From Prevotella merdae (GTDB taxonomy: Bacteria; Bacteroidota; Bacteroidia; Bacteroidales; Bacteroidaceae): DNA of 28,478 bases. Shown here one piece after another: positions 1,890 to 20,111 of the stretch; position 1 is the first letter of the stretch; every line of letters begins with the position of its first letter. The notes beneath the pieces were generated by a model. That model was not told where the DNA came from and did not search any database. It was given only the letters and a program-made list of their open reading frames with translations. The DNA lies in assembly GCF_900290275.1 (NCBI RefSeq), contig NZ_LT985330.1, positions 1 to 28,478 on the forward strand. The letters are read 5' to 3'. The position numbers and the translations under genes are program-made.

Positions 1890-1941
1890 TATCAGAAACT
1901 AAAGCGAACTAATTACTGAACAAACATAAATAATTTTGCAA

Positions 1942-3477
1942 ATGAAAAAACAGCACATCTCATTGATTTTGGGTGCTATGGCACTGGGTGTAGAGGCAAT
2001 GGCGCAAGAGCGTCCTAATGTAATCTACGTTTTTCCTGACCAATACCGCAACTATGCAATGGAGTTTTGGGCGCAACCTGATTTTGCCGGACAGCTAAAC
2101 TCAGCTTCCGACCCAGTTCATACGCCTAACATCAATCGGTTCGCACGCGAGAGTGTCGTTCTGTCGTCAGCTCAGAGCAATTGCCCGTTGAGTAGTCCTC
2201 ATCGTGGCTCGCTTCTAACTGGTATGTATCCTAACCGCAGCGGTGTGCCTCTCAACTGCAACTCAAGTCGTCCTATCTCATCACTTCGCAAAGACGCTAC
2301 TTGCTGGAGCGATGTAATGAGCCAGGCTGGTTATGATTGTGCATATATAGGTAAGTTGCACACCGATTTCCCTACAAAGAACTCTCCTCAGCATCCTGGC
2401 GATTATGTAGAGACACAGCGTCCTGTTTGGGATGCATATACAGAGCCTCAGAATCGTCATGGTTTCAACTATTGGTACTCTTATGGTACATTCGACGAGC
2501 ATAAGAATCCACATTATTGGGATACAGAGGGCAATCGTCATGAACCACATGAGTGGTCGCCTACTTACGAGGCAAAGAAGGCCATTGAATACATTCAGAA
2601 CAAGAATGGACAGCGCGATGGATCGAAGCCGTTCTTCCTTATGGTTGGTATGAATCCGCCTCACAGCCCGTATCGTACACTGAACGACTGTATGGAGGAG
2701 GACTATAACCTATACCGTGATGTTCCAATAGACAAGCTTTTGGTACGTAAGAATGCCAACCGCGATATGGCTAAGGCTGAGTCGGCACGCTATTACTTCG
2801 CTTCGGTTACTGGTGTTGACCGTGCTTTCGGTATGATTCTTGATGCGCTTAAGGAGGCTGGTCTCGACGAGAATACTGTAGTAGTATTTAGCTCTGACCA
2901 CGGTGAGACAATGTGCTCGCAGAATACTGACGACCCAAAGAACTCGCCTTATACCGAGTCAATGAACGTTCCATTCATCATCCGTTATGGTTCACGTCTT
3001 AAGCCACACGTTGACAATCTGCTCCTTTCATCGCCTGACATCATGCCTACAATGCTTGGTATGGCAGGTTTGCACGATAAGATTCCTGCAGAGATTCAGG
3101 GTGTTGACTATTCTCCATTGTTCTATCAGCCAGGTTCGCAGAGCGTAAAACGTCCGGATGCAGCTCTATATATCCAGAACATGGACGGCAACAAGGATGC
3201 TCAGGGCAACGTTGTCGACTACTTCCCGTCAGCACGTGGCATCAAGACACATCAGTATACAATGGCTGTATATATTGATCGCAATAACAATCGCGACCAT
3301 GTATTGCTGTTTGATGATCAGGCCGACCCGTACCAGCTTAATAATATAGCTGACGCCAAGGAGGGCAAGGCTGCCATTAAGAAACTGTACAAGCGTATGG
3401 GCGAGCTGCTTACCGAGATTGACGACCCTTGGATTTCGCGTGGCATCTACAAGCGTGTTGCCAAGCAGCTTAAGTAA
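1942..3477 (+). CDS. Exported sulfatase (S1 type, serine-type active site)
   Basis: The start is placed at ATG 1942, which begins a normal signal peptide (MKKQHISLILG... ending AMAQ); an in-frame TTG at 1936 would only add two residues. The mature protein is an alkaline-phosphatase-fold sulfatase. The active-site signature is CPLSSPHRGSLLTG: the S-x-P-x-R form places the residue to be converted to formylglycine at Ser84 (numbered from 1942). A metal-site motif FPDQ is near residue 33 and SDHGE near 318-322 (Asp319, His320). Ser-type enzymes need an anaerobic radical-SAM maturase (anSME), which is not in the window. Length of 511 residues is normal. It opens the uronate block, so it probably removes sulfate from a sulfated uronate glycan such as a glycosaminoglycan; the exact linkage cannot be read from sequence. 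Confidence 0.9.
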   Translation: MKKQHISLILGAMALGVEAMAQERPNVIYVFPDQYRNYAMEFWAQPDFAGQLNSASDPVHTPNINRFARESVVLSSAQSNCPLSSPHRGSLLTGMYPNRSGVPLNCNSSRPISSLRKDATCWSDVMSQAGYDCAYIGKLHTDFPTKNSPQHPGDYVETQRPVWDAYTEPQNRHGFNYWYSYGTFDEHKNPHYWDTEGNRHEPHEWSPTYEAKKAIEYIQNKNGQRDGSKPFFLMVGMNPPHSPYRTLNDCMEEDYNLYRDVPIDKLLVRKNANRDMAKAESARYYFASVTGVDRAFGMILDALKEAGLDENTVVVFSSDHGETMCSQNTDDPKNSPYTESMNVPFIIRYGSRLKPHVDNLLLSSPDIMPTMLGMAGLHDKIPAEIQGVDYSPLFYQPGSQSVKRPDAALYIQNMDGNKDAQGNVVDYFPSARGIKTHQYTMAVYIDRNNNRDHVLLFDDQADPYQLNNIADAKEGKAAIKKLYKRMGELLTEIDDPWISRGIYKRVAKQLK

Positions 3478-3550: not shown

Positions 3551-4783
3551 ATGATGCGAAATCTTAAGTGTATCTTTGCCTTGGCTTTGGCTCTTACAAT
3601 GGGCTTGACATCAGCTTCGGCTAAGGTGGTTCTTACCGTAAAGAATGCTGGAAAAGAACAGCGTCACGAGGTTGTGGCCTTCGATGCCAAGAAGGTTTGG
3701 CAGAAACTCGGTGTTGCAGAAGGCACACCAATTAGGGTAAAGGACCTTTACAACCTCGAGGTACCAAGTCAGCTTACTCATGACAACCAACTGCTTGTTG
3801 AGACTAACGTAATTCCTGGTGGAGTGGCTAAGTTTAATGTAGTGGCAGGCACACCTCGCAAGACTACCAACTATACAGACGGCAAGTTGTATGCGTGGCG
3901 CGTGGATGACTTTACATGGGAGAACGATAAGTGCTCTTATCGTGCTTATGGTCCAGCTTTGCAACGTACTGGAGAAAAGGCTTTTGGTATTGACGTATGG
4001 CTAAAGAGCACTCCTTATCTCGATGTAGAACGCCGCTATGCTGTTGTGTTTGACGGACACAAACGCGCTGATGTGCTTGAGGCTGCCGGACATAAGGCTG
4101 AGGCTGACTCTATACGTGGTGAGGTATCTTTGCACCTTGAGCATGGTACAGGACTTGATTGTTACAATGTAGGTCCGTCGCTCGGTTGCGGTACACCAGG
4201 TGTGCTTATCGGCGACAGTATAGTATTCCCTTACTGCTTTAAGGAAGTGCGCGTGCTTGATAACGGTCCGCTGCGCTTTGTGGCTGAATTTGTGTATAAC
4301 AAAACGAATATCGGAAATCAGAATATTACAGAACATCGTATTATAAGCCTTGACAAAGGCTCTTATTTCAATAAAATGACCGTCTGGTACGAAGGTTTAG
4401 TGAAACCTATAGATGTGGTAGGCGGTGTAGTCGTGCACACAGATAATCCTTATGACCTCAAATTAGAGTCTGATTTCGTTGCGTATACCGACCCAACCGA
4501 CAGTCCTAAGAAGCATAACTTTGAGATTTATGTGGCAGCACTCTTCCCAGGTGGCGCCGACAAGACAATGCTGGTTAAGGACCCTTGGCATCATAAGGCA
4601 GGCATCGTGGGTAATGCTGTTGGTGTGAAGCGCGGCTTGAATAACAACGAGCCTTTCAGCTATTATTTTGGTGCAGGATGGTGCGAGAGTGGCATTCCAA
4701 ATCAACGCTTTTGGCATGAGAACATAAGATTGTTCCTCGACAATTTGAGTAAACCGCTTGTTGCCGATGTCGTTAGCGAGTAA
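3551..4783 (+). CDS. Secreted DUF4861 family protein
   Basis: The protein has 410 residues, with a signal peptide (hydrophobic FALALALTMGLTSASA, likely cut after residue ~24) and no lipobox, so it is periplasmic. Start could be either of two adjacent ATGs (3551 or 3554). The body is soluble and beta-rich and resembles DUF4861 proteins, which are known mainly from Bacteroidetes polysaccharide-utilisation loci, often beside lyases or unsaturated uronyl hydrolases. Visible features are a WRVDDFTWENDKCSYRAYGPALQ segment near 117-138 and a GLDCYNVGPSLGCG segment near 200-213; conserved Asp, Glu, Tyr and His residues there could form an active site. It lies between a sulfatase and the intracellular uronate enzymes. 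No function has been assigned by me; an unknown lyase, hydrolase or binding role is possible. Confidence 0.85.
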   Translation: MMRNLKCIFALALALTMGLTSASAKVVLTVKNAGKEQRHEVVAFDAKKVWQKLGVAEGTPIRVKDLYNLEVPSQLTHDNQLLVETNVIPGGVAKFNVVAGTPRKTTNYTDGKLYAWRVDDFTWENDKCSYRAYGPALQRTGEKAFGIDVWLKSTPYLDVERRYAVVFDGHKRADVLEAAGHKAEADSIRGEVSLHLEHGTGLDCYNVGPSLGCGTPGVLIGDSIVFPYCFKEVRVLDNGPLRFVAEFVYNKTNIGNQNITEHRIISLDKGSYFNKMTVWYEGLVKPIDVVGGVVVHTDNPYDLKLESDFVAYTDPTDSPKKHNFEIYVAALFPGGADKTMLVKDPWHHKAGIVGNAVGVKRGLNNNEPFSYYFGAGWCESGIPNQRFWHENIRLFLDNLSKPLVADVVSE

Positions 4784-4899: not shown

Positions 4900-5922
4900 A
4901 TGGCAAAGATTATAACCCTTGGCGAGATTATGCTTCGCCTTTCTCCAGTCGGTAACGACCGTTTTATCCAGTCAGAAACCCTTCGCGTCATTCCTGGTGG
5001 CGGTGAGGCTAACGTAGCTGTTAGTTTAGCTAATTATGGTCATGAGGCTTACTTTGTGAGCAAGCTTCCTAAGCATGAGATTGGTCAGATGGCAGTTAAC
5101 GCATTGCGTCGTTATGGTGTAGATACAAGTTTTGTTGCTCGTGGTGGCGACCGTGTAGGTCTATACTATGCTGAAACAGGTGCTTCAATGCGTCCGTCAA
5201 AGGTTGTTTACGACCGTGCTCACTCTGCAATTGCAGAGGCTAAGCCTGAGGATTTCGACTTCGATGCTATTATGGAAGGTGCTCAGTGGTTCCACTGGAG
5301 TGGCATTACTCCTGCTATCAGCGACAATGCAGCCGAGCTTACACGTCTTGCTTGTGAGGCTGCTAAGCGTCACGGTGTAACAGTGAGTGTTGATCTCAAC
5401 TTCCGTAAGAAGCTTTGGACATCAGAGAAAGCTATCTCTGTAATGCGTCCTTTGATGAAGTATGTTGACGTTTGCATAGGCAACGAGGAAGACGCACAGC
5501 TCTGCCTTGGCTTTAAGCCTGACGCTGACGTTGAGGGTGGACAGACCGACGCAAGTGGCTATCACAAGATCTTTGAGCAGATGAAGCAGGAGTTTGGCTT
5601 CAAGTATGTTGTTTCTACTCTACGTGAGAGCTTCTCGGCAACACATAATGGTTGGAAGGCTCTTATCTATAACGGCGAGGAGTTCTATGAGAGCCGTCGT
5701 TATGACATTATGCCTATTATCGACCGTGTAGGTGGTGGCGACTCATTCTCAGGTGGTCTTATCCATGGTTTGCTTACAAAGCCTACACAGGGTGAAGCTC
5801 TTGAGTTTGCCGTTGCAGCTTCGGCATTGAAGCACACTATTAACGGTGACTTCAACCTTGTTACTGTTGATGAGGTAGAGGCTTTGGCGGCTGGTAATGC
5901 TAATGGTCGTGTACAGCGATAA
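4900..5922 (+). CDS. kdgK: 2-keto-3-deoxygluconate kinase (PfkB family)
   Basis: This 340-residue cytoplasmic sugar kinase phosphorylates 2-keto-3-deoxygluconate (KDG) to KDPG with ATP. The N-terminal PfkB part shows LGEIMLRLSP and the substrate-side GGGEANVAVSLA (residues 33-44). The C-terminal PfkB signature is DRVGGGDSFSGG (275-286), with Asp281 as the likely catalytic base. SVDLNFRKKLW (163-173) and GNEEDA (194-199) also fit KDG kinases. It sits directly before the KDPG aldolase gene, whose substrate it makes. Another PfkB sugar specificity is possible from sequence alone, but the neighbourhood makes KDG by far the best fit. Confidence 0.92.
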   Translation: MAKIITLGEIMLRLSPVGNDRFIQSETLRVIPGGGEANVAVSLANYGHEAYFVSKLPKHEIGQMAVNALRRYGVDTSFVARGGDRVGLYYAETGASMRPSKVVYDRAHSAIAEAKPEDFDFDAIMEGAQWFHWSGITPAISDNAAELTRLACEAAKRHGVTVSVDLNFRKKLWTSEKAISVMRPLMKYVDVCIGNEEDAQLCLGFKPDADVEGGQTDASGYHKIFEQMKQEFGFKYVVSTLRESFSATHNGWKALIYNGEEFYESRRYDIMPIIDRVGGGDSFSGGLIHGLLTKPTQGEALEFAVAASALKHTINGDFNLVTVDEVEALAAGNANGRVQR

Positions 5923-5931
5923 ATAAAGGCT

Positions 5932-6145
5932 AAAAGCCTCACCCACGTCCCATCCCAATAGGGGGAGATTGGTATGCTGATATTGCTTATAAAAGTTTTG
6001 ATACAGCTTTTATACATATAATATACAGCTGATAAAAGGAATGAGGGAGCCTAAGCTTTATATAATAATAACTTTATTTTAAACAACAATTTGCCCAACA
6101 TACCGCTCCTCTCCCTATGGGGGGAGGTGATGGGGTAGGGCTTTT
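5932..6145. repeat. Imperfect long inverted-repeat element between kdgK and eda
   Basis: Two arms of about 45 nt, starting AAAAGCC at 5932 and ending GGCTTTT at 6145, pair with roughly three quarters identity, including internal matches ATAGGG and GGTATG. The centre is AT-rich. The element fills the 241-bp gap between two genes that should be cotranscribed. It resembles the palindromic GC-rich intergenic repeats (AAAGCC...TCCC...GGGA) scattered in Prevotella-like genomes; this last point is from general memory. Confidence 0.6.
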
Positions 6146-6163
6146 CATTTATCATTAATCATT

Positions 6164-6838
6164 ATGGCTAAATTCAACAAACAGCAGGTGCTTGCAAAGA
6201 TTACCGAGACTGGTATGGTGCCTGTATTCTATAATAAAGACGTAGAGATAGCAAAGAACATCGTAAAGGCTTGCTATGATGGTGGTGTTCGTGCATTCGA
6301 GTTTACCAACCGTGGTGACTTCGCTCACGAGGTATTCGCAGAGGTAGTTAAGTTTGCAGCTAAGGAATGTCCAGATATGGCAATGGGTGTAGGCTCTATC
6401 GTTGACGCTCCTACAGCATCTCTTTACATCCAGCTTGGTGCTTGCTTTGTAGTAGGTCCGTTGTTCAACCCAGACGTAGCAAAGGTTTGCAACCGTCGTC
6501 TTATTCCTTATACACCAGGATGTGGCTCAGTAACCGAGGTTGGTATGGCTCAGGAGATGGGTTGCGATCTTTGCAAGGTATTCCCTGGTGACGTTCTTGG
6601 TCCTAACTTTGTTAAGGGCTTGAAGGCCCCAATGCCTTGGGCGCTTATCATGGTTACAGGTGGTGTATCTCCAGATGCTGATAACATAGCTTCTTGGATT
6701 AAGGCTGGTGCCAACTGTGTAGGTATGGGCTCTAAGCTTTTCCCGAAGGCCACTATCGCTGCTGGTGATTGGAAGGCAGTGAGCGACAAGTGCCGTGAGT
6801 CTTTGGCTTTTGTTGCACAGGCTCGTGAGAAGAAGTAA
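6164..6838 (+). CDS. eda: 2-dehydro-3-deoxy-phosphogluconate (KDPG) aldolase
   Basis: This 224-residue cytoplasmic class I aldolase splits KDPG into pyruvate and glyceraldehyde-3-phosphate. The family's Schiff-base lysine is Lys138 in [10 protein letters not shown]. Glu46 and Arg50 in FEFTNRGD correspond to the general acid/base and phosphate-side residues of KDPG aldolases. MGVGSIVD (74-81), PYTPGC (115-120) and VTGGVSPD (164-171) are the other conserved barrel motifs. Some members also cleave 4-hydroxy-2-oxoglutarate. It completes the pathway begun by kdgK upstream and by kduI and kduD downstream. Confidence 0.93.
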
Positions 6839-6923
6839 CAAATAATAAAGGTGTCTCCTCAGCCCAACAAGTGGAGGAGCTCCTTCTCAATAGATTAAAA
6901 TCTATTCTTTTAAAACAAATTTA

Positions 6924-8288
6924 ATGGAACAAGTATTCAGTTATATTATCAGTCTGGGTGCATCGGTGATGATGCCTATCCTTTTTACCATTATCGGTCT
7001 CTGTATCGGTATGAAATTTGGTAAGGCATTCAAGTCGGGACTCTATGTAGGTGTCGGCTTCGTTGGACTTGGTGTGGTTACAGCTTTGCTTACCAGCAAT
7101 TTCAATGATCCATTGAAGTGCATCTCAGACATCTATCATCTACAGCTTAATGTATTTGACATGGGCTGGCCTGCAGCAGCAGCTGTTGCATACAATACAG
7201 CCGTTGGTGCGCTTATCATCCCTATCTGTCTTGGTGTGAACTTCCTTATGCTTATCACAAAGACTACCCGTACTGTGAACATCGACCTTTGGAACTATTG
7301 GCATTTTGCCTTTATTGGTGCCGTAGTATATTTTGTTATGGGCGAGAGCCTTATCTGGGGTTACTTTGCTTCTATCGTTTGCTACATCATCACATTGGTG
7401 TGTGCCGACCTTACAGCAGAGAAGTTTCAGAAGCACTACGACCTCGATGGTATCTCTATACCACAACCGTTCTGCCAGAGCTTCGTGCCATTTGCTGTTA
7501 TCCTAAACAAGGCATTAGACTATATTCCAGGTTTCTCTAAGCTCGACATCGATGCAGAGGGAATGAAGAAGAAGTTTGGTGTATTGGGCGAGCCTCTTGT
7601 TCTTGGTGTTATCGTAGGTATGCTCATTGGTTGGGCAGCACAGCTTGATATCAAGAAGGTGCTCTTCCTCGGTGTTACAATGGGTGCAGTTATGGAGCTT
7701 ATCCCACGTATTACATCACTCTTTATAGAGGGATTGAAGCCTATCTCGGAGAAGACCCAGGAACTTGTAAAGACCAAGTTCAACGGCAAGAAGGTATACA
7801 TTGGTATGAGTCCAGCCTTGGTTATCGGTCATCCTACAACACTCGTTGCTTCGGTTATCCTTATTCCGGTTATCCTTGCATTGGCAGTGTTCCTCCCAGG
7901 CAACCAGTTCCTTCCATTGGCATCGCTTGCAGGTATGTTCTATCTCTTCCCAATGGTATTGCCGTTTACAAAGGGTAATGTGGTTAAGACCCTCATCATC
8001 GGTCTTGTAACCCTCATTATCGGTTTGTACTTTGTAACAGACATGGCTCCTGACTTTACACTTGCAGCCAATCAGGTATACGAGGCTACACATGATGCAA
8101 CAGCACATATCCCCGAAGGATTCTCGGGTGGTGCTCTCGACTTTGCCGCTTCGTTCTTTGGATGGACTATATACAAGCTCTCTTGCCATATCAAGTACGT
8201 TGGTCCGGCAGTGCTCGTTATCATTACCCTTGGTATGATGCTCTACAATCGCAGCCGCATCATCAAGGAAGAGAAGGCAGCCAAATAA
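6924..8288 (+). CDS. PTS EIIC component, galactitol (GAT) family, without EIIA/EIIB
   Basis: The protein has 454 residues, about the same length as GatC of Escherichia coli, and is hydrophobic throughout. Family motifs are intact: GLYVGVGFVGLG near residue 39, FDMGWPAAA near 78, TRTVNIDLWNYWHF near 115-128, FGVLGEPLVLGVI near 217-229, MSPALVIGHPTT near 295 and PGNQFLPL near 325. It has no fused EIIA or EIIB domain and none is encoded nearby; classical sugar PTS systems are generally missing from Bacteroidales. It lies between eda and kduI with short gaps (85 and 52 bp), and it is the only inner-membrane carrier in the block. I infer that it imports a keto-uronate such as DKII or DKI without phosphorylating it. 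Substrate and coupling ion are unknown. Confidence 0.88.
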   Translation: MEQVFSYIISLGASVMMPILFTIIGLCIGMKFGKAFKSGLYVGVGFVGLGVVTALLTSNFNDPLKCISDIYHLQLNVFDMGWPAAAAVAYNTAVGALIIPICLGVNFLMLITKTTRTVNIDLWNYWHFAFIGAVVYFVMGESLIWGYFASIVCYIITLVCADLTAEKFQKHYDLDGISIPQPFCQSFVPFAVILNKALDYIPGFSKLDIDAEGMKKKFGVLGEPLVLGVIVGMLIGWAAQLDIKKVLFLGVTMGAVMELIPRITSLFIEGLKPISEKTQELVKTKFNGKKVYIGMSPALVIGHPTTLVASVILIPVILALAVFLPGNQFLPLASLAGMFYLFPMVLPFTKGNVVKTLIIGLVTLIIGLYFVTDMAPDFTLAANQVYEATHDATAHIPEGFSGGALDFAASFFGWTIYKLSCHIKYVGPAVLVIITLGMMLYNRSRIIKEEKAAK

Positions 8289-8340
8289 GTAAGCCAATAG
8301 ACTTAAGAATATAAGAAACTTATTAAATTACAATAGACAA

Positions 8341-9258
8341 ATGAAGAAATTTTTTATCACTGCTGCCGTAGCCCTCATGTCAATGTCGGCAATGGCACAG
8401 AAAACCAACTATGAGGTGCGTTGGGCTAATCACCCAGAGGATGCAAAGCATTACACAACAGAGCGTCTGCGCAAAGAGTTTCTCATTGAAAAGGTATTTG
8501 CTCCTAATGAGGTAAACTGGACCTACTCTATGTACGACCGTTTCCTTATGGGTGGTGCCGAGCCAACCGACGCTCCTATCAAGCTTGAGCCAATCGAGCC
8601 ATTGCTCGCAAAGACTTTCCTTGAGAACCGTGAGATTGGTATCATCAACATCGGCGGTCCTGGTGTTGTAGAGGTAGACGGCAAAAAGTACGACCTTAAC
8701 TTCCAGGAGGGTATCTATGTTGGTCGATCTACAGAGAAGAATCCTAATAATATTACTCTCACAAGCAAGGACCCAAAGAACCCAGCCAAGTTCTATATGA
8801 ACAGTGCCACAGCTCACGCTTCATATCCTACAAAGCGCGTGACATTGAAGGAGGCTAATAATATCAAGGCTGGTTCGCTTGCCGAGAGCAACGACCGTGT
8901 TATACATCAGCTCATTATTAATGGTGTTGCAGGTGTTCGCACATGCCAGTTGCAGATGGGTGTTACTGAGCTTAAGACAGGTTCGGTTTGGAATACAATG
9001 CCTGCTCACACACACATTCGTCGTATGGAGACATATCTCTATTTCAAGGTTCCAGAAGGTCAGCGTATATGCCACTTGATGGGTGAGCCACAGGAAACAC
9101 GCCCTATGTGGTTGGATAATGAGCAAGCTGTTATATCTCCGCAATGGTCTATCCACTGTGCTGCTGGTACAAGCAACTACACATTTATCTGGGGTATGGC
9201 AGGCGAGAACCTCGACTACACAGATATGCAGAAGATTAAGACTACTGATTTAAAATAA
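8341..9258 (+). CDS. kduI: 5-keto 4-deoxyuronate isomerase with a signal peptide
   Basis: The protein converts 4-deoxy-L-threo-5-hexosulose uronate (DKI) to 3-deoxy-D-glycero-2,5-hexodiulosonate (DKII). The cupin metal site is intact: His223, His225 and Glu230 in HTHIRRME, and His272 in [11 protein letters not shown]; the tail FIWGMAGEN is typical. Length is 305 residues; the cytosolic E. coli enzyme has 278. The extra part is an N-terminal signal peptide: lysines at 2-3, a hydrophobic core and SAMA followed by Gln20, the common Bacteroidetes signal peptidase I site. There is no internal ATG close to residue 21 that would give a normal cytosolic form. There is no lipobox. The enzyme is therefore predicted to work in the periplasm. 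It is followed 10 bp later by kduD. Confidence 0.93.
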
Positions 9259-9268
9259 CAATACTACT

Positions 9269-10063
9269 ATGGACAAAATGTTTTCACTTGAGGGCAAGGT
9301 AGCTCTCGTTACCGGTGCCGCTTATGGCATTGGCTTCGCTATGGCGGAGGCTCTTTATAATGCAGGCGCTAAGATTGCGTTCAACTGCCGTTCACAGCAT
9401 CACATGGATCAGGCTCTTGCCGACTATAAGGCTAAGGGTATTGATGCTCATGGTTATATTTGCGATGTTACAAACGAGGAGCAAGTTAAGCAGATGGTTG
9501 CCGACATCGAGAAGGAACTCGGTGTTATCGATATTCTTGTAAACAATGCAGGTATTATCAAACGTATACCTATGACAGAGATGTCTGTAGAGGACTTCCG
9601 TCAGGTTATCGATATCGACCTCAACGCTCCGTTCATCGTATCTAAGGCTGTTATCCCTGGCATGAAGGCTAAGGGCCACGGCAAGATTATCAACATCTGC
9701 TCTATGATGTCTGAGCTTGGTCGCGAGACTGTATCGGCTTATGCTGCCGCTAAGGGTGGCTTGAAGATGCTTACACGCAACATTTGCTCTGAGTTTGGCG
9801 AGGACAACATCCAGTGCAACGGCATTGGCCCTGGTTATATTGCAACTCCTCAGACAGCTCCTTTGCGCGAGCGTCAGCCGGATGGTTCACGTCATCCATT
9901 TGACAGCTTTATTGTTGCTAAGACACCTGCTGCACGTTGGGGTACACCTGAAGACCTCATGGGTCCGGTTGTTTTCCTTGCCAGCGATGCTTCAAACTTC
10001 GTAAACGGTCATATCCTTTACGTTGATGGTGGTATCTTGGCTTACATTGGCAAGCAGCCATAA
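9269..10063 (+). CDS. kduD: 2-dehydro-3-deoxy-D-gluconate 5-dehydrogenase (SDR family)
   Basis: This 264-residue classical short-chain dehydrogenase has no signal peptide. The dinucleotide motif is TGAAYGIG (15-22), NNAG is at 92-95 and the catalytic set is Ser145, Tyr158 and Lys162 (YAAAK). FNCRS after beta-2 and the C-terminal YVDGGILAYIGKQP end fit KduD. It reduces DKII to KDG using NAD(P)H in the cytoplasm and so hands its product to KdgK. The 10-bp gap from kduI implies translational coupling. Because kduI is predicted to be exported and KduD is not, the DKII intermediate must cross the inner membrane between the two steps. Confidence 0.92.
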   Translation: MDKMFSLEGKVALVTGAAYGIGFAMAEALYNAGAKIAFNCRSQHHMDQALADYKAKGIDAHGYICDVTNEEQVKQMVADIEKELGVIDILVNNAGIIKRIPMTEMSVEDFRQVIDIDLNAPFIVSKAVIPGMKAKGHGKIINICSMMSELGRETVSAYAAAKGGLKMLTRNICSEFGEDNIQCNGIGPGYIATPQTAPLRERQPDGSRHPFDSFIVAKTPAARWGTPEDLMGPVVFLASDASNFVNGHILYVDGGILAYIGKQP

Positions 10064-10292: not shown

Positions 10293-10904
10293 TCATTGCG
10301 TACCCAATAAATCTTCATCAAAGAGTTTGGCGATTTTCTGATGTCTTGCCATCAGCATTGTTTGGGTGTAAACCTCCTTGTTCAGAGGTAGCTTAATTTG
10401 TATGGTTGTGATGTTTTTTGCTAATGCAAGCCCCTTGTCTACGCTCATCTTAACCTCTGAGACTTTCAGCATACGTTCCAATTCTTTGTACACTTTCAAA
10501 GCCACAAAACAGATGCATATATGAGCCTCGATGCGTTTGCGTGTAAAGTGAAACATGGGACATATCTCTATCTTTGATTTGGCTATACGGAAAGCCCGTT
10601 CTACGTGCCAAAGGTTGTGGTATGCTGTGTATACATCCTGTATTGGTATATCCGTATTGGTGAGATATCCTTTTAGGCCGTCCCATTCACACGCGTCACG
10701 CTCCTCACCATACAAATCGAGTTGAGGATGACGGTGGGATTCTTCCTTGAAAATCCATTCCTTTGCTTCATTGACAAGATTTTCGACCTCATCTTCACTA
10801 TATGCAACACCAATTGTTGCAAGTTCCTTCATCTTGCCACCGATTTTCTCAACAACAATAACTCAGATATTGCCAGATGGATATTTCTTTTTGCGGACAA
10901 ACAT
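10293..10904 (-). pseudogene. IS1634-family transposase, centre deleted and with an early stop
   Basis: The reading frame starts with MFVRKKK at 10904, typical of the IS1634 family, and runs through the family's N-terminal block (ATIGVAYSEDEVENLVNEAKEWIFKE). It then jumps to the C-terminal block GYLTNTDIPIQDVYTAYHNL and HVERAFRIAKSKIEI...RRIEAHI-like. Full family members have roughly 550-600 residues (from memory), so some 350-400 central residues with DDE residues are gone. In addition codon 14 is TGA (10863-10865), where copy 2 has GGA for glycine. The longest open part begins at MKEL, 10832. Nonfunctional as a transposase. Confidence 0.85.
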
Positions 10905-11235: not shown

Positions 11236-12815
11236 TTCCGCAACACTATAGTTTAACATTATTTATAAGTGCCTGAGCAACAAAAAGTTACCCAGGATTT
11301 TGCCATGTCAGAATTTTCACTTACCTTAGTGTTGCGAAAAGAAGACAAGCAAAACTCTAATATGACATGGCAAAGATACAAATTAAATCAGAGAAACTCA
11401 CTCCTTTTGGGGGAATTTTTTCGATTATGGAGCAATTTGATGCTCTTTTAGCTCAAACCATAGATTCCACCTTGGGATTGAGATGCACTATGTTTGGTTA
11501 TCAATATAGCGAGATTCTACGCTCTCTGATGTGCGTATATCTTTGTGGTGGCTCATGCATTGAGGATGTTACAACTCACCTGATGAAACATTTGTCTCTT
11601 CATCCAACTCTTCGCACTTGCAGCGCAGACACCATATTACGTGCTATCGAAGAACTGACATTTAAGAGCATCACCTATAAGTCTGCTTCTGGCAAATCCT
11701 ATGATTTCAATACTGCAGACAAGATGAACTGCTTACTGGTCAATGCCCTGCTTGCTACTGGTCAATTGAAATCCGGTCAAGAGTATGATTTTGACTTTGA
11801 CCATCAGTTCATTGAAACAGAGAAGTATGATGCAAAACCAACCTACAAGAAGTTCTTGGGCTATAGTCCAGGCGTAGCTGTCATTAACGACATGATTGTT
11901 GGTATTGAAAATAGAGACGGCAACACAAACGTACGCTTCAACCAAAAAGAAACTTTGGAAAGAATCTTCAAGCGATTGGAGGCTTCGGAAATATATATTT
12001 CTCGTGCCCGCATGGATTGCGGCTCATGTTCGGAGGAAATCGTAGATATGGTAGAGGCTCATTGCAGGCATTTTTATATTCGTGCCAACAGATGCTCTTC
12101 TTTCTACGATTCCATGTTTGCCTTAACTGGATGGAAAACTGTTGAAATCAACGGTATTGAGTTTGAGTTGAATTCTATCCTTGTTGAGAAATGGAAAGGA
12201 AAACCGTATCGTCTTGTCATACAGAGACAAAGGCGAATAGATGGAGACCTTGACATTTGGGAAGGCGAATATACCTACAGATGTATACTGGCTAACGATT
12301 ACAAGTCGAGTGCAAGAGACATCGTGGAATTCTACAATCTTCGTGGTGGCAAGGAACGCATCTTCGATGACATGAACAATGGCTTTGGCTGGAATCGATT
12401 GCCAAAATCGTTCATGGCACAGAATACTGTATTCCTGCTTATGACAGCTCTCATCAGAAACTTCTACAAAGCTATTATGCAGAGATTGAAAACCCATGAA
12501 TTTGGATTGCGTGCCACCAGCAGAATCAAGACCTTTGTTTTCAAGTTCATCTCTGTTCCTGCGAAATGGATTAAGACATCACGTAGGCATGTATTGAACA
12601 TTTACTCAGACAACAATGCTTATGCCAACCTGTTCAAGACAGACTTTGGTTAAAGACCATGCTTTTCTGGTTAAACCAGCGTATTACCTCAAGTCGCTTT
12701 ATGGGGTAAGGGGATTTTGTGTCTGCGACATTTCTGTTGTGCAAGAAATATGTACAATAAAATGAATTTTGTCGCTTTGCAAGCAAAATCCCACTAAACC
12801 CTATAGGTTGCGGAT
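11236..12815 (+). mobile_element. IS1380-family insertion sequence, apparently complete
   Basis: A full-length transposase gene is enclosed by imperfect inverted repeats: TCCGCAACACTATAG at the left (from 11237) and, read inward on the minus strand, TCCGCAACCTATAG at the right (12801-12814). About 1.58 kb is normal for the family. The left non-coding part contains another inverted pair (CGCAACACTA and TTAGTGTTGCG). Exact ends and target duplication are uncertain. A degraded left end of a related element is at 27745-27895. Confidence 0.8.
11367..12653 (+). CDS. IS1380-family transposase
   Basis: The protein of 428 residues is a DDE transposase similar to those of Bacteroides elements of the IS1380 family. 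The likely catalytic residues lie in DFDHQFIETEKYDAK (first Asp), ARMDCGSCSEEIV (second Asp) and YNLRGGKERIFDDMNNGFGW (Glu). The C-terminal block with NTVFLLMTALIRNFYKAI is typical. Start at ATG 11367 gives MAKIQIKSEKLTPFGG, the usual opening. No frameshift or stop is seen, so the element may be active. Confidence 0.92.
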   Translation: MAKIQIKSEKLTPFGGIFSIMEQFDALLAQTIDSTLGLRCTMFGYQYSEILRSLMCVYLCGGSCIEDVTTHLMKHLSLHPTLRTCSADTILRAIEELTFKSITYKSASGKSYDFNTADKMNCLLVNALLATGQLKSGQEYDFDFDHQFIETEKYDAKPTYKKFLGYSPGVAVINDMIVGIENRDGNTNVRFNQKETLERIFKRLEASEIYISRARMDCGSCSEEIVDMVEAHCRHFYIRANRCSSFYDSMFALTGWKTVEINGIEFELNSILVEKWKGKPYRLVIQRQRRIDGDLDIWEGEYTYRCILANDYKSSARDIVEFYNLRGGKERIFDDMNNGFGWNRLPKSFMAQNTVFLLMTALIRNFYKAIMQRLKTHEFGLRATSRIKTFVFKFISVPAKWIKTSRRHVLNIYSDNNAYANLFKTDFG

Positions 12816-19480: not shown

Positions 19481-20111
19481 CCTGACTTCGTCATTGCGTC
19501 ACCCAAAAATTTTCGTCAAAGAGTTTGGCGATTTTCTGATGTCTTGCCATCAGCACTGTTTGGGTGTAAACCTCCTTGTTCAGAGGTAGCTTAATTTGTA
19601 TGGTTGTGATTGTCTTAGCCAATGCAAGCACCTTGTCTACGTTCATCTTAATCTCTGAGACTTTCAGCATACGCTCCAATTCCTTGTACACTTTCAAAGC
19701 CACAAAGCAGATGCATATATGAGCCTCGATGCGTTTGCGTGTAAAGTGAAACATGGGACGTATCTCTATCTTTGATTTGGCTATACGGAAAGCCCGTTCT
19801 ACGTGCCAAAGGTTGTGGTATGCTGTGTATACATCCTGTATTGGTATATCCGTATTGGTGAGATATGCTTCATTGACAAGATTTTCGATCTCATCTTCAC
19901 TATATGCAACACCAATTGTTGCAAGTTCCTTCATCTTGCCACCAATTTTCTCAACTACAATAACTCCGATATTGCCAGATGGATATTTCTTTTTGCGGAC
20001 AAACATAGTTAAAATACCTTTCGTGTCACCCAATATTAGGTGACCCAAAGATTCAAAATATTGTTTATCAACAAGTTATAAAATACGGATTTTTTGAGTG
20101 ACGAAGTCAGG
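19481..20111 (-). mobile_element. Internally deleted IS1634-family element, copy 2
   Basis: The ends are CCTGACTTCGTCA (19481-19493) and TGACGAAGTCAGG (20099-20111). At 631 bp it is 96 bp shorter than copy 1 at 10283-11009, almost wholly because of a further in-frame deletion in the transposase gene. The remaining sequence is highly similar to copy 1. Both copies have the same orientation and bracket the susC operon and the IS1380 element. Confidence 0.85.
19491..20006 (-). CDS. Miniature IS1634-type transposase, central part deleted, frame open
   Basis: From MFVRKKKYPSGNIGVIVVEK the frame is open for 171 residues to TGA in the left inverted repeat; an upstream ATG at 20048 would add 14 unlikely residues. 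The N-terminal family block runs to LVNEA. It is joined directly to YLTNTDIPIQDVYTAYHNL and the C-terminal block with HVERAFRIAKSKIEIRPMFH. Compared with copy 1, 32 residues (KEWIFKE... to ...WDGLKG) are also missing. The DDE core is absent, so it cannot catalyse transposition. It could still bind element ends or the parent transposase and act as a regulator, or it may simply be a decaying gene that stayed in frame. Confidence 0.6.
   Translation of the reverse strand: MFVRKKKYPSGNIGVIVVEKIGGKMKELATIGVAYSEDEIENLVNEAYLTNTDIPIQDVYTAYHNLWHVERAFRIAKSKIEIRPMFHFTRKRIEAHICICFVALKVYKELERMLKVSEIKMNVDKVLALAKTITTIQIKLPLNKEVYTQTVLMARHQKIAKLFDENFWVTQ

Follow-up and report, generated by a model that had tools for sequence, protein, structure and literature searches.

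A predicted exported KduI paired with an orphan EIIC carrier in the Bacteroidales: a candidate periplasmic isomerization route for 5-keto-4-deoxyuronate

The isomerase KduI acts on 5-keto-4-deoxyuronate (DKI), a substrate that the accounts of the pathway published so far, in the passages searched, either place in the cytosol or leave without a location. Here, we describe a stretch of 28,478 nucleotides of Prevotella merdae (contig NZ_LT985330.1, positions 1 to 28,478; in the following, the window) in which the kduI gene (8341–9258, + strand) encodes a protein with a predicted signal peptide and lies directly downstream of the gene of an EIIC-GAT family carrier (6924–8288, + strand) without partners of the phosphotransferase system (PTS). 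We propose that, in one branch of the Bacteroidales, KduI was moved to the periplasm and tied to this carrier. In the proposed route, exported lyases and unsaturated uronyl hydrolases (GH88/105) would release DKI in the periplasm, exported KduI would convert it there into 2,5-diketo-3-deoxygluconate (DKII), and the EIIC would carry DKII inward unphosphorylated; in the cytosol, the reductase KduD/DhuD would reduce DKII to 2-keto-3-deoxygluconate (KDG), which KdgK and Eda would take to pyruvate and glyceraldehyde 3-phosphate. We consider this reading, taken as a whole, probable (roughly 0.7). The parts with support from sequence are the leader of KduI, its lasting pairing with the EIIC, the failure to find EI, IIB and HPr, the reductase in 15 of 15 genomes and the leader-like starts of GH88/105 proteins, and we infer the actual location of the isomerase, DKII as the cargo, the direction of transport and its energetics. 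An earlier note on this DNA had proposed the route from gene order and predicted locations, and the analysis supports a sharper version of it, a two-gene module made of an orphan EIIC and an exported KduI.

The KduI of the window, 305 residues long, is recognized by the model NF002091 (399.5 bits; cut-off 250) and has the metal-site motif H-x-H-x4-E (HTHIRRME), whose residues we take to be zinc ligands and which is present in 108 of the 109 exported and 141 of the 143 leaderless KduI proteins compared. Its similarity to solved KduI chains starts only at residue 21–26. The 19 residues before Gln20 consist of a basic start with two lysines, a hydrophobic core (best mean Kyte-Doolittle value 2.15 over 12 residues) and A-M-A followed by Q (MKK...SAMA/Q), and are predicted, by eye and from relatives, to be a type I signal peptide (8341–8397, + strand) cleaved between A19 and Q20; signal anchor and lipoprotein readings were considered and rejected. 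Signal peptides were called throughout by simple rules and by eye, and by such rules the protein has all the traits of the Bacteroidetes substrates of signal peptidase I: basic start, hydrophobic core, small-x-small and Gln, the A-x-A then Q pattern being described as the Q-rule in the passages searched of PMC5837995. A or G or S followed by Q is found at residues 17–27 in 105 of 109 leader-bearing KduI proteins. By eye, no leader was seen on KdgK, Eda or KduD, in agreement with the earlier claim that KduI is the only one of the pathway enzymes to bear one. Moreover, the alignment with the solved chain 9kd0, which is almost the same protein as the exported Bacteroides finegoldii KduI, begins at the Gln predicted to be the first mature residue, so the mature form has seemingly been expressed by somebody; no paper with the structure codes 9KD0/9KCZ was found in the literature search. 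In the mature part, one alignment column is a nearly fixed difference between exported and leaderless proteins, with thresholds set in this analysis.

The association between leader and carrier was surveyed in genomes of relatives, from which all genome-level counts derive. KduI was searched in 17 relatives, 295 Bacteroidales, 251 same-family genomes and 375 phylum genomes, and EIIC-GAT in the same 295 Bacteroidales, the same 251 family members and 395 phylum genomes; the N-terminus and the genes upstream were inspected for 278 KduI matches on 284 loci plus the window, corresponding to 256 distinct proteins. Every one of the 107 KduI whose gene directly follows that of an EIIC bears a leader, including the eight EIIC-linked ones of the order-wide sample, as the earlier note had expected of a functional coupling, and among the 149 KduI without an EIIC directly upstream a clear leader is present in two only. 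Seen from the side of the leader, an EIIC is directly upstream of 107 of 109 leader-bearing versus 0 of 143 leaderless KduI (Fisher p 3e-70, a value that ignores common descent and is not readable as a probability). The start relative to the homologous region separates the two groups as well, lying 1–4 residues ahead of it in 135 of the 138 leaderless proteins whose start was read and 20–40 residues ahead in the 107 EIIC-adjacent ones, which rules out a start-site annotation error as the cause of the split.

A match to the carrier itself was found in 8 of 295 Bacteroidales and in 87 of 251 same-family genomes, and 3 of 395 phylum genomes had one over the cut-off. In the same-family sample, 85 of the 87 genomes with the EIIC hold an exported KduI and the other two are cut by contig ends; of the 61 genomes with KduI and no EIIC, 60 were scored leaderless and one was truncated, so that a clear leader occurs in none. 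In the phylum sample, KduI had a match in 105 genomes (90 over the cut-off), and no leader was found in the best 30 loci read of these 105. Of 17 EIICs at first without a listed KduI neighbour, 13 proved to have one, three (in genomes G705, G913 and G939) lie at contig ends and one, in G879, is truly unlinked. Independent occurrence of exported KduI and EIIC, which the earlier note had named as speaking against the coupling, was seen in none of the 295 Bacteroidales or 251 same-family genomes.

The two leader-bearing proteins without an adjacent EIIC deserve mention. In one case (L233), some 680 bases separate the start from the end of its contig, and the EIIC of that genome ends another contig. 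The other (L231, in G879) has its EIIC on another contig, behind a KduD-like gene, and the pair is unlinked yet both members are kept; by eye, this exported KduI stands directly ahead of an apparent SusC/SusD pair. Both come from ten candidates flagged by the leader filter, the remaining eight of which (L066, L154, L163, L168, L236, L245, L278 and L281) were rejected, having an ATG three residues before the homologous region; their upstream stretches start at TTG in five cases and at ATG in three. Three of them (L163, L168 and L236), in EIIC-less genomes, have in common a hydrophobic stretch that follows a TTG and might still bear a leader; they were counted as leaderless. Furthermore, L232, whose sequence breaks off right at the leader boundary, received no label, and the exported KduI of G708, which is present in two identical copies, the second next to a run of N, was counted once.

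On a tree of 253 mature KduI sequences (the truncated L095, L098 and L284 excluded) the leader corresponds to one change with local support 93, and again to one change on 64 sampled sequences with a better model (support 96 in the SH-like approximate likelihood ratio test, SH-aLRT); no loss of the leader was seen inside the exported clade. Given this single origin, the correlation reflects one founding event and not many independent trials. Its weight lies in retention: the leader is kept in KduI proteins as little as 48% identical to that of the window, in changing neighbourhoods, and in the unlinked genome G879. The distances of EIIC and KduI are also correlated (r 0.53 over 105 pairs, with 0 of 1000 permutations as high), which is a modest value and not used as main support.

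The EIIC of the window, 454 residues long, belongs to the EIIC-GAT family by PF03611 (251 bits; cut-off 24.2), a family and predicted fold that it has in common with the EIIC of the galactitol PTS, GatC: it scores 272 bits to 9u82 (GatC of Leminorella grimontii), and the best structural match of the predicted model (mean pLDDT 72) is again 9u82, with a template modelling (TM) score of 0.72, followed by UlaA. Unlike a galactitol carrier, it stays below the cut-off of the galactitol EIIC model TIGR00827 (393 bits; cut-off 542.2) and appears to lack a phosphotransfer chain. There is no IIA or IIB gene in the window, and in EIIC genomes of relatives EI was found in 0 of 30, IIB in 0 of 30 and HPr in 0 of 15, while controls (E. 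coli and others) were positive; no search for IIA was made. An EIIC that lacks EI, HPr and IIB is not expected to work as a phosphorylating PTS. Transport of this kind has a possible parallel in E. coli, where uptake of xylose by facilitated diffusion, without phosphorylation, was deduced for a GatC-type EIIC (PMC10989795, passages searched).

A hint on the cargo comes from outside the Bacteroidota. The best EIIC relative there in the plasmid collection, 56% identical to that of the window, is encoded on the Lactobacillus intestinalis plasmid NZ_CP072985.1 in an operon kduD-EIIC-kinase-eda, where it lies between kduD (446 bits, over the cut-off) and the genes of a sugar kinase and a KDPG aldolase. 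As in the window, the EIIC accompanies KduD with no IIA or IIB beside it; the operon differs in that no KduI or GH88 match was found in the approximately 99 kb around it (the chromosome and the rest of the plasmid were not searched) and in belonging to a Gram-positive cell without a periplasm of the same kind. The next-best EIIC of that collection, from C. difficile, adjoins IIA and IIB. This one operon, which retains the EIIC beside the DKII reductase and lacks the isomerase, points to DKII as the probable cargo. One could go further and imagine free DKII as a traded nutrient, isomerized outside and imported via the EIIC by Bacteroidales, with neighbours such as L. intestinalis living on what leaks; we regard this extension as rather doubtful.

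The two ends of the proposed route can also be followed in the relatives. GH88/105 enzymes, the producers of DKI, were found in 28 of 30 EIIC genomes, and a leader-like start is present in 29 of the 30 GH88/105 loci read (starts were taken from the longest frame at the match plus a simple rule), the remaining one (L287) having been misread by the script; in G846, G946, G942 and G759, a GH88 gene stands head to head with that of the EIIC. The reductase is present in all 15 genomes chosen for having an exported-only KduI match, with 72–97% identity (in G042 the match covers residues 64–264). Should DKI and KduI indeed be outside and the reductase in the cytosol, it is DKII that has to pass the membrane. 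The earlier note had named a second, cytosolic KduI carrying the flux as an outcome that would speak against the route, and here the result is divided: among the 85 EIIC genomes in which an exported KduI was confirmed, 70 show no leaderless one, and thus in most genomes no cytosolic KduI exists to carry the flux (G708 and G734, among the 70, have two exported copies each), and 14 of the 85 also have a leaderless KduI. Beside these 14, G929 has an additional second KduI match whose N-terminus is outside the count.

In the window, the order kdgK-eda-EIIC-kduI-kduD given by the earlier note for 4900–10063 is correct, with five open reading frames, all open and on the + strand. The first gene (4900–5922) encodes a PfkB-family sugar kinase (PF00294, 115.8 bits), probably KdgK, a name that rests on context because it reached the cut-off of none of the NCBIfam KDG-kinase models. 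It is followed by eda (6164–6838), encoding a KHG/KDPG aldolase (NF005499, 378.7 bits; cut-off 275). Behind kduI, the last gene (9269–10063) encodes a leaderless KduD/DhuD-type short-chain reductase (NF005488, 497 bits; cut-off 369) that remains below the KduD equivalog models NF005390 (244.5; cut-off 369) and TIGR01832 (227.2; cut-off 338.85); the Bacteroidota reductase is named DhuD in PMC12838403, in the passages searched. Isomerase and reductase genes are adjacent and in the same direction, as in the kduI-dhuD (type E) clusters. This five-gene layout, however, is not a conserved unit. Neighbourhoods were counted on loci flanked on either side by 4.5 kb or more, 72 leaderless and 69 exported, the latter picked by their adjacent EIIC, which is therefore present in 69 of 69 by construction and near 0 of the 72 leaderless KduI. 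Near the exported KduI, kduD, kdgK and eda occur in 15, 9 and 9 of the 69 loci, so that, of the unit that the earlier note had drawn, the pairing of EIIC with exported KduI is conserved and the other three genes are near only a minority; the window, with EIIC and reductase together, represents a minority arrangement. The partner of leaderless KduI is instead the reductase, near 71 of 72 loci versus 15 of 69 exported ones, and not a major facilitator superfamily (MFS) carrier, as the earlier note had supposed: MFS genes are near 3 of the 72 leaderless loci and 24 of the 69 exported ones.

This last distribution bears on the first of three other explanations, in which KduI is exported but DKII enters by another carrier, such as the MFS protein encoded nearby, and the EIIC takes up some other sugar from the same glycans. 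The higher count of MFS genes near exported KduI speaks for it; on the other hand, 45 of the 69 pairs have no MFS gene nearby, whereas the EIIC is beside 107 of the 109 exported KduI, and the kduI-less Lactobacillus operon has an EIIC and no MFS gene. We consider this explanation unlikely. Two of the MFS proteins, taken as examples, are below the cut-off of a galactonate-transporter model.

Quite unlikely, in our opinion, is that the module serves plain hexuronates, with periplasmic KduI making tagaturonate or fructuronate from galacturonate or glucuronate and the EIIC importing those. An action of E. coli KduI on galacturonate and glucuronate has been proposed, as a hypothesis of the authors (PMC3578941, passages searched), and pectinesterase genes lie near 3 of the 69 EIIC-KduI pairs. 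Where any pathway genes stand beside the pair, however, they are those of KduD, KdgK and Eda, the EIIC of Lactobacillus, a relative, is accompanied by kduD and the genes of a kinase and an aldolase, and GH88/105 genes are near 5 of the 69 pairs. Finally, a decaying or non-functional leader on a cytosolic KduI, in a normal operon whose EIIC imports DKI, would agree with an export known from sequence alone, with a metal-site motif kept in both groups and with a single near-fixed difference in the mature protein, but appears very improbable, given that the A/G/S-Q signature persists in 105 of 109 proteins down to 48% identity, that the clade shows no leader loss and that the 9kd0 chain begins at the predicted mature residue.

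Several observations count against periplasmic isomerization followed by EIIC import. The genome-level statements bear on relatives of the window only, and the leader has one origin, so the correlation counts as a single event. Fourteen EIIC genomes also keep a leaderless KduI, and in the 24 of 69 loci with a nearby MFS carrier that carrier could be the importer. Among the 30 EIIC genomes searched for GH88/105, no match was found in G001 and G042, and Leyella stercorea (G015), the nearest relative of the window, gave a single weak match (42.9 bits) though the EIIC-KduI pair is present. Furthermore, a metagenomic EIIC (P0194; 625 residues, five member sequences), 87% identical to that of the window, is fused to a sorbose-type IIB, which may be either a chimera or a real PTS link.

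With respect to known systems, the module shares isomerase family, reductase, kinase and aldolase with both the canonical KduI-KduD-KdgK-Eda pathway and the kduI-dhuD (type E) clusters of the Bacteroidota, which were described in a survey of isomerase-reductase clusters in 3,550 strains (PMC12838403, in the passages searched). In type E clusters a leaderless kduI stands beside the reductase gene, the pattern of 71 of the 72 leaderless loci here, whereas in the module KduI bears a leader and is constantly accompanied by the EIIC, with the reductase gene in most cases at another place; the word ‘signal’ has no occurrence in that source, and EIIC carriers of Bacteroidota were not found in its searched passages. 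The chondroitin/hyaluronan locus of Bacteroides thetaiotaomicron (PMC6994673) is alike in that periplasmic GH88 enzymes and sulfatases release DKI, but in its searched passages DKI feeds cytoplasmic metabolism directly and neither a location of the isomerase nor an inner-membrane carrier is named; likewise, the passages searched of PMC6994673 and PMC9067506 let monomers enter the cytoplasm and name no carrier for DKI. No report of a periplasmic KduI, or of KduI paired with an EIIC, was found in the literature searched, most subscription papers and all bioRxiv preprints being outside the search.

Upstream of the five genes, all on the + strand, the window contains an NhaD-like gene (369–1733), the gene of an exported sulfatase (1936–3477), probably an upstream step in glycosaminoglycan use, and that of an exported DUF4861 protein (3551–4783; PF16153), a possible pathway member whose family is also encoded behind kduI-kduD in 43 of the 72 leaderless loci. 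The closest solved structure to the sulfatase is the endo-4-O-sulfatase 6s21 (790 bits), presumably BT3349; this match likens the window to the B. thetaiotaomicron locus and suggests chondroitin or dermatan sulfate as the substrate of the operon. The sulfatase is conserved (76%) in the Leyella stercorea locus L019, and the KduI of that species is 92% identical to that of the window. In the gap between kdgK and eda (5923–6163), a self-complementary stretch rich in G+C, CTCCCTATGGGGGGAGG, is found at 6111, present in a single copy in the window and perhaps a dispersed repeat; promoter-like and terminator-like sites were no more frequent in the window than in shuffles. Downstream of the reductase gene, transposase remains are followed by a SusC/SusD pair. 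The stretch from the operon to the SusC/SusD genes contains a DDE transposase (11367–12653) and a perfect 19-base inverted pair (10277–10295/10997–11015), and two related minus-strand open reading frames are found at 10293–10832 and 19491–20048. These elements, between the operon and SusC/SusD and beyond, may have broken a former link between the two.

It is plausible that the proposed division of the pathway keeps a reactive keto-uronate outside the cell, with its import pulled by reduction. If KduI is indeed periplasmic, many gut Prevotella and Bacteroides would import DKII and not DKI, and the EIIC would become a candidate for the inner-membrane step that accounts of glycosaminoglycan and pectin use leave unnamed. 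This would also explain why an EIIC gene is kept in genomes without PTS EI and IIB, as a PTS carrier recruited to serve as a plain transporter.

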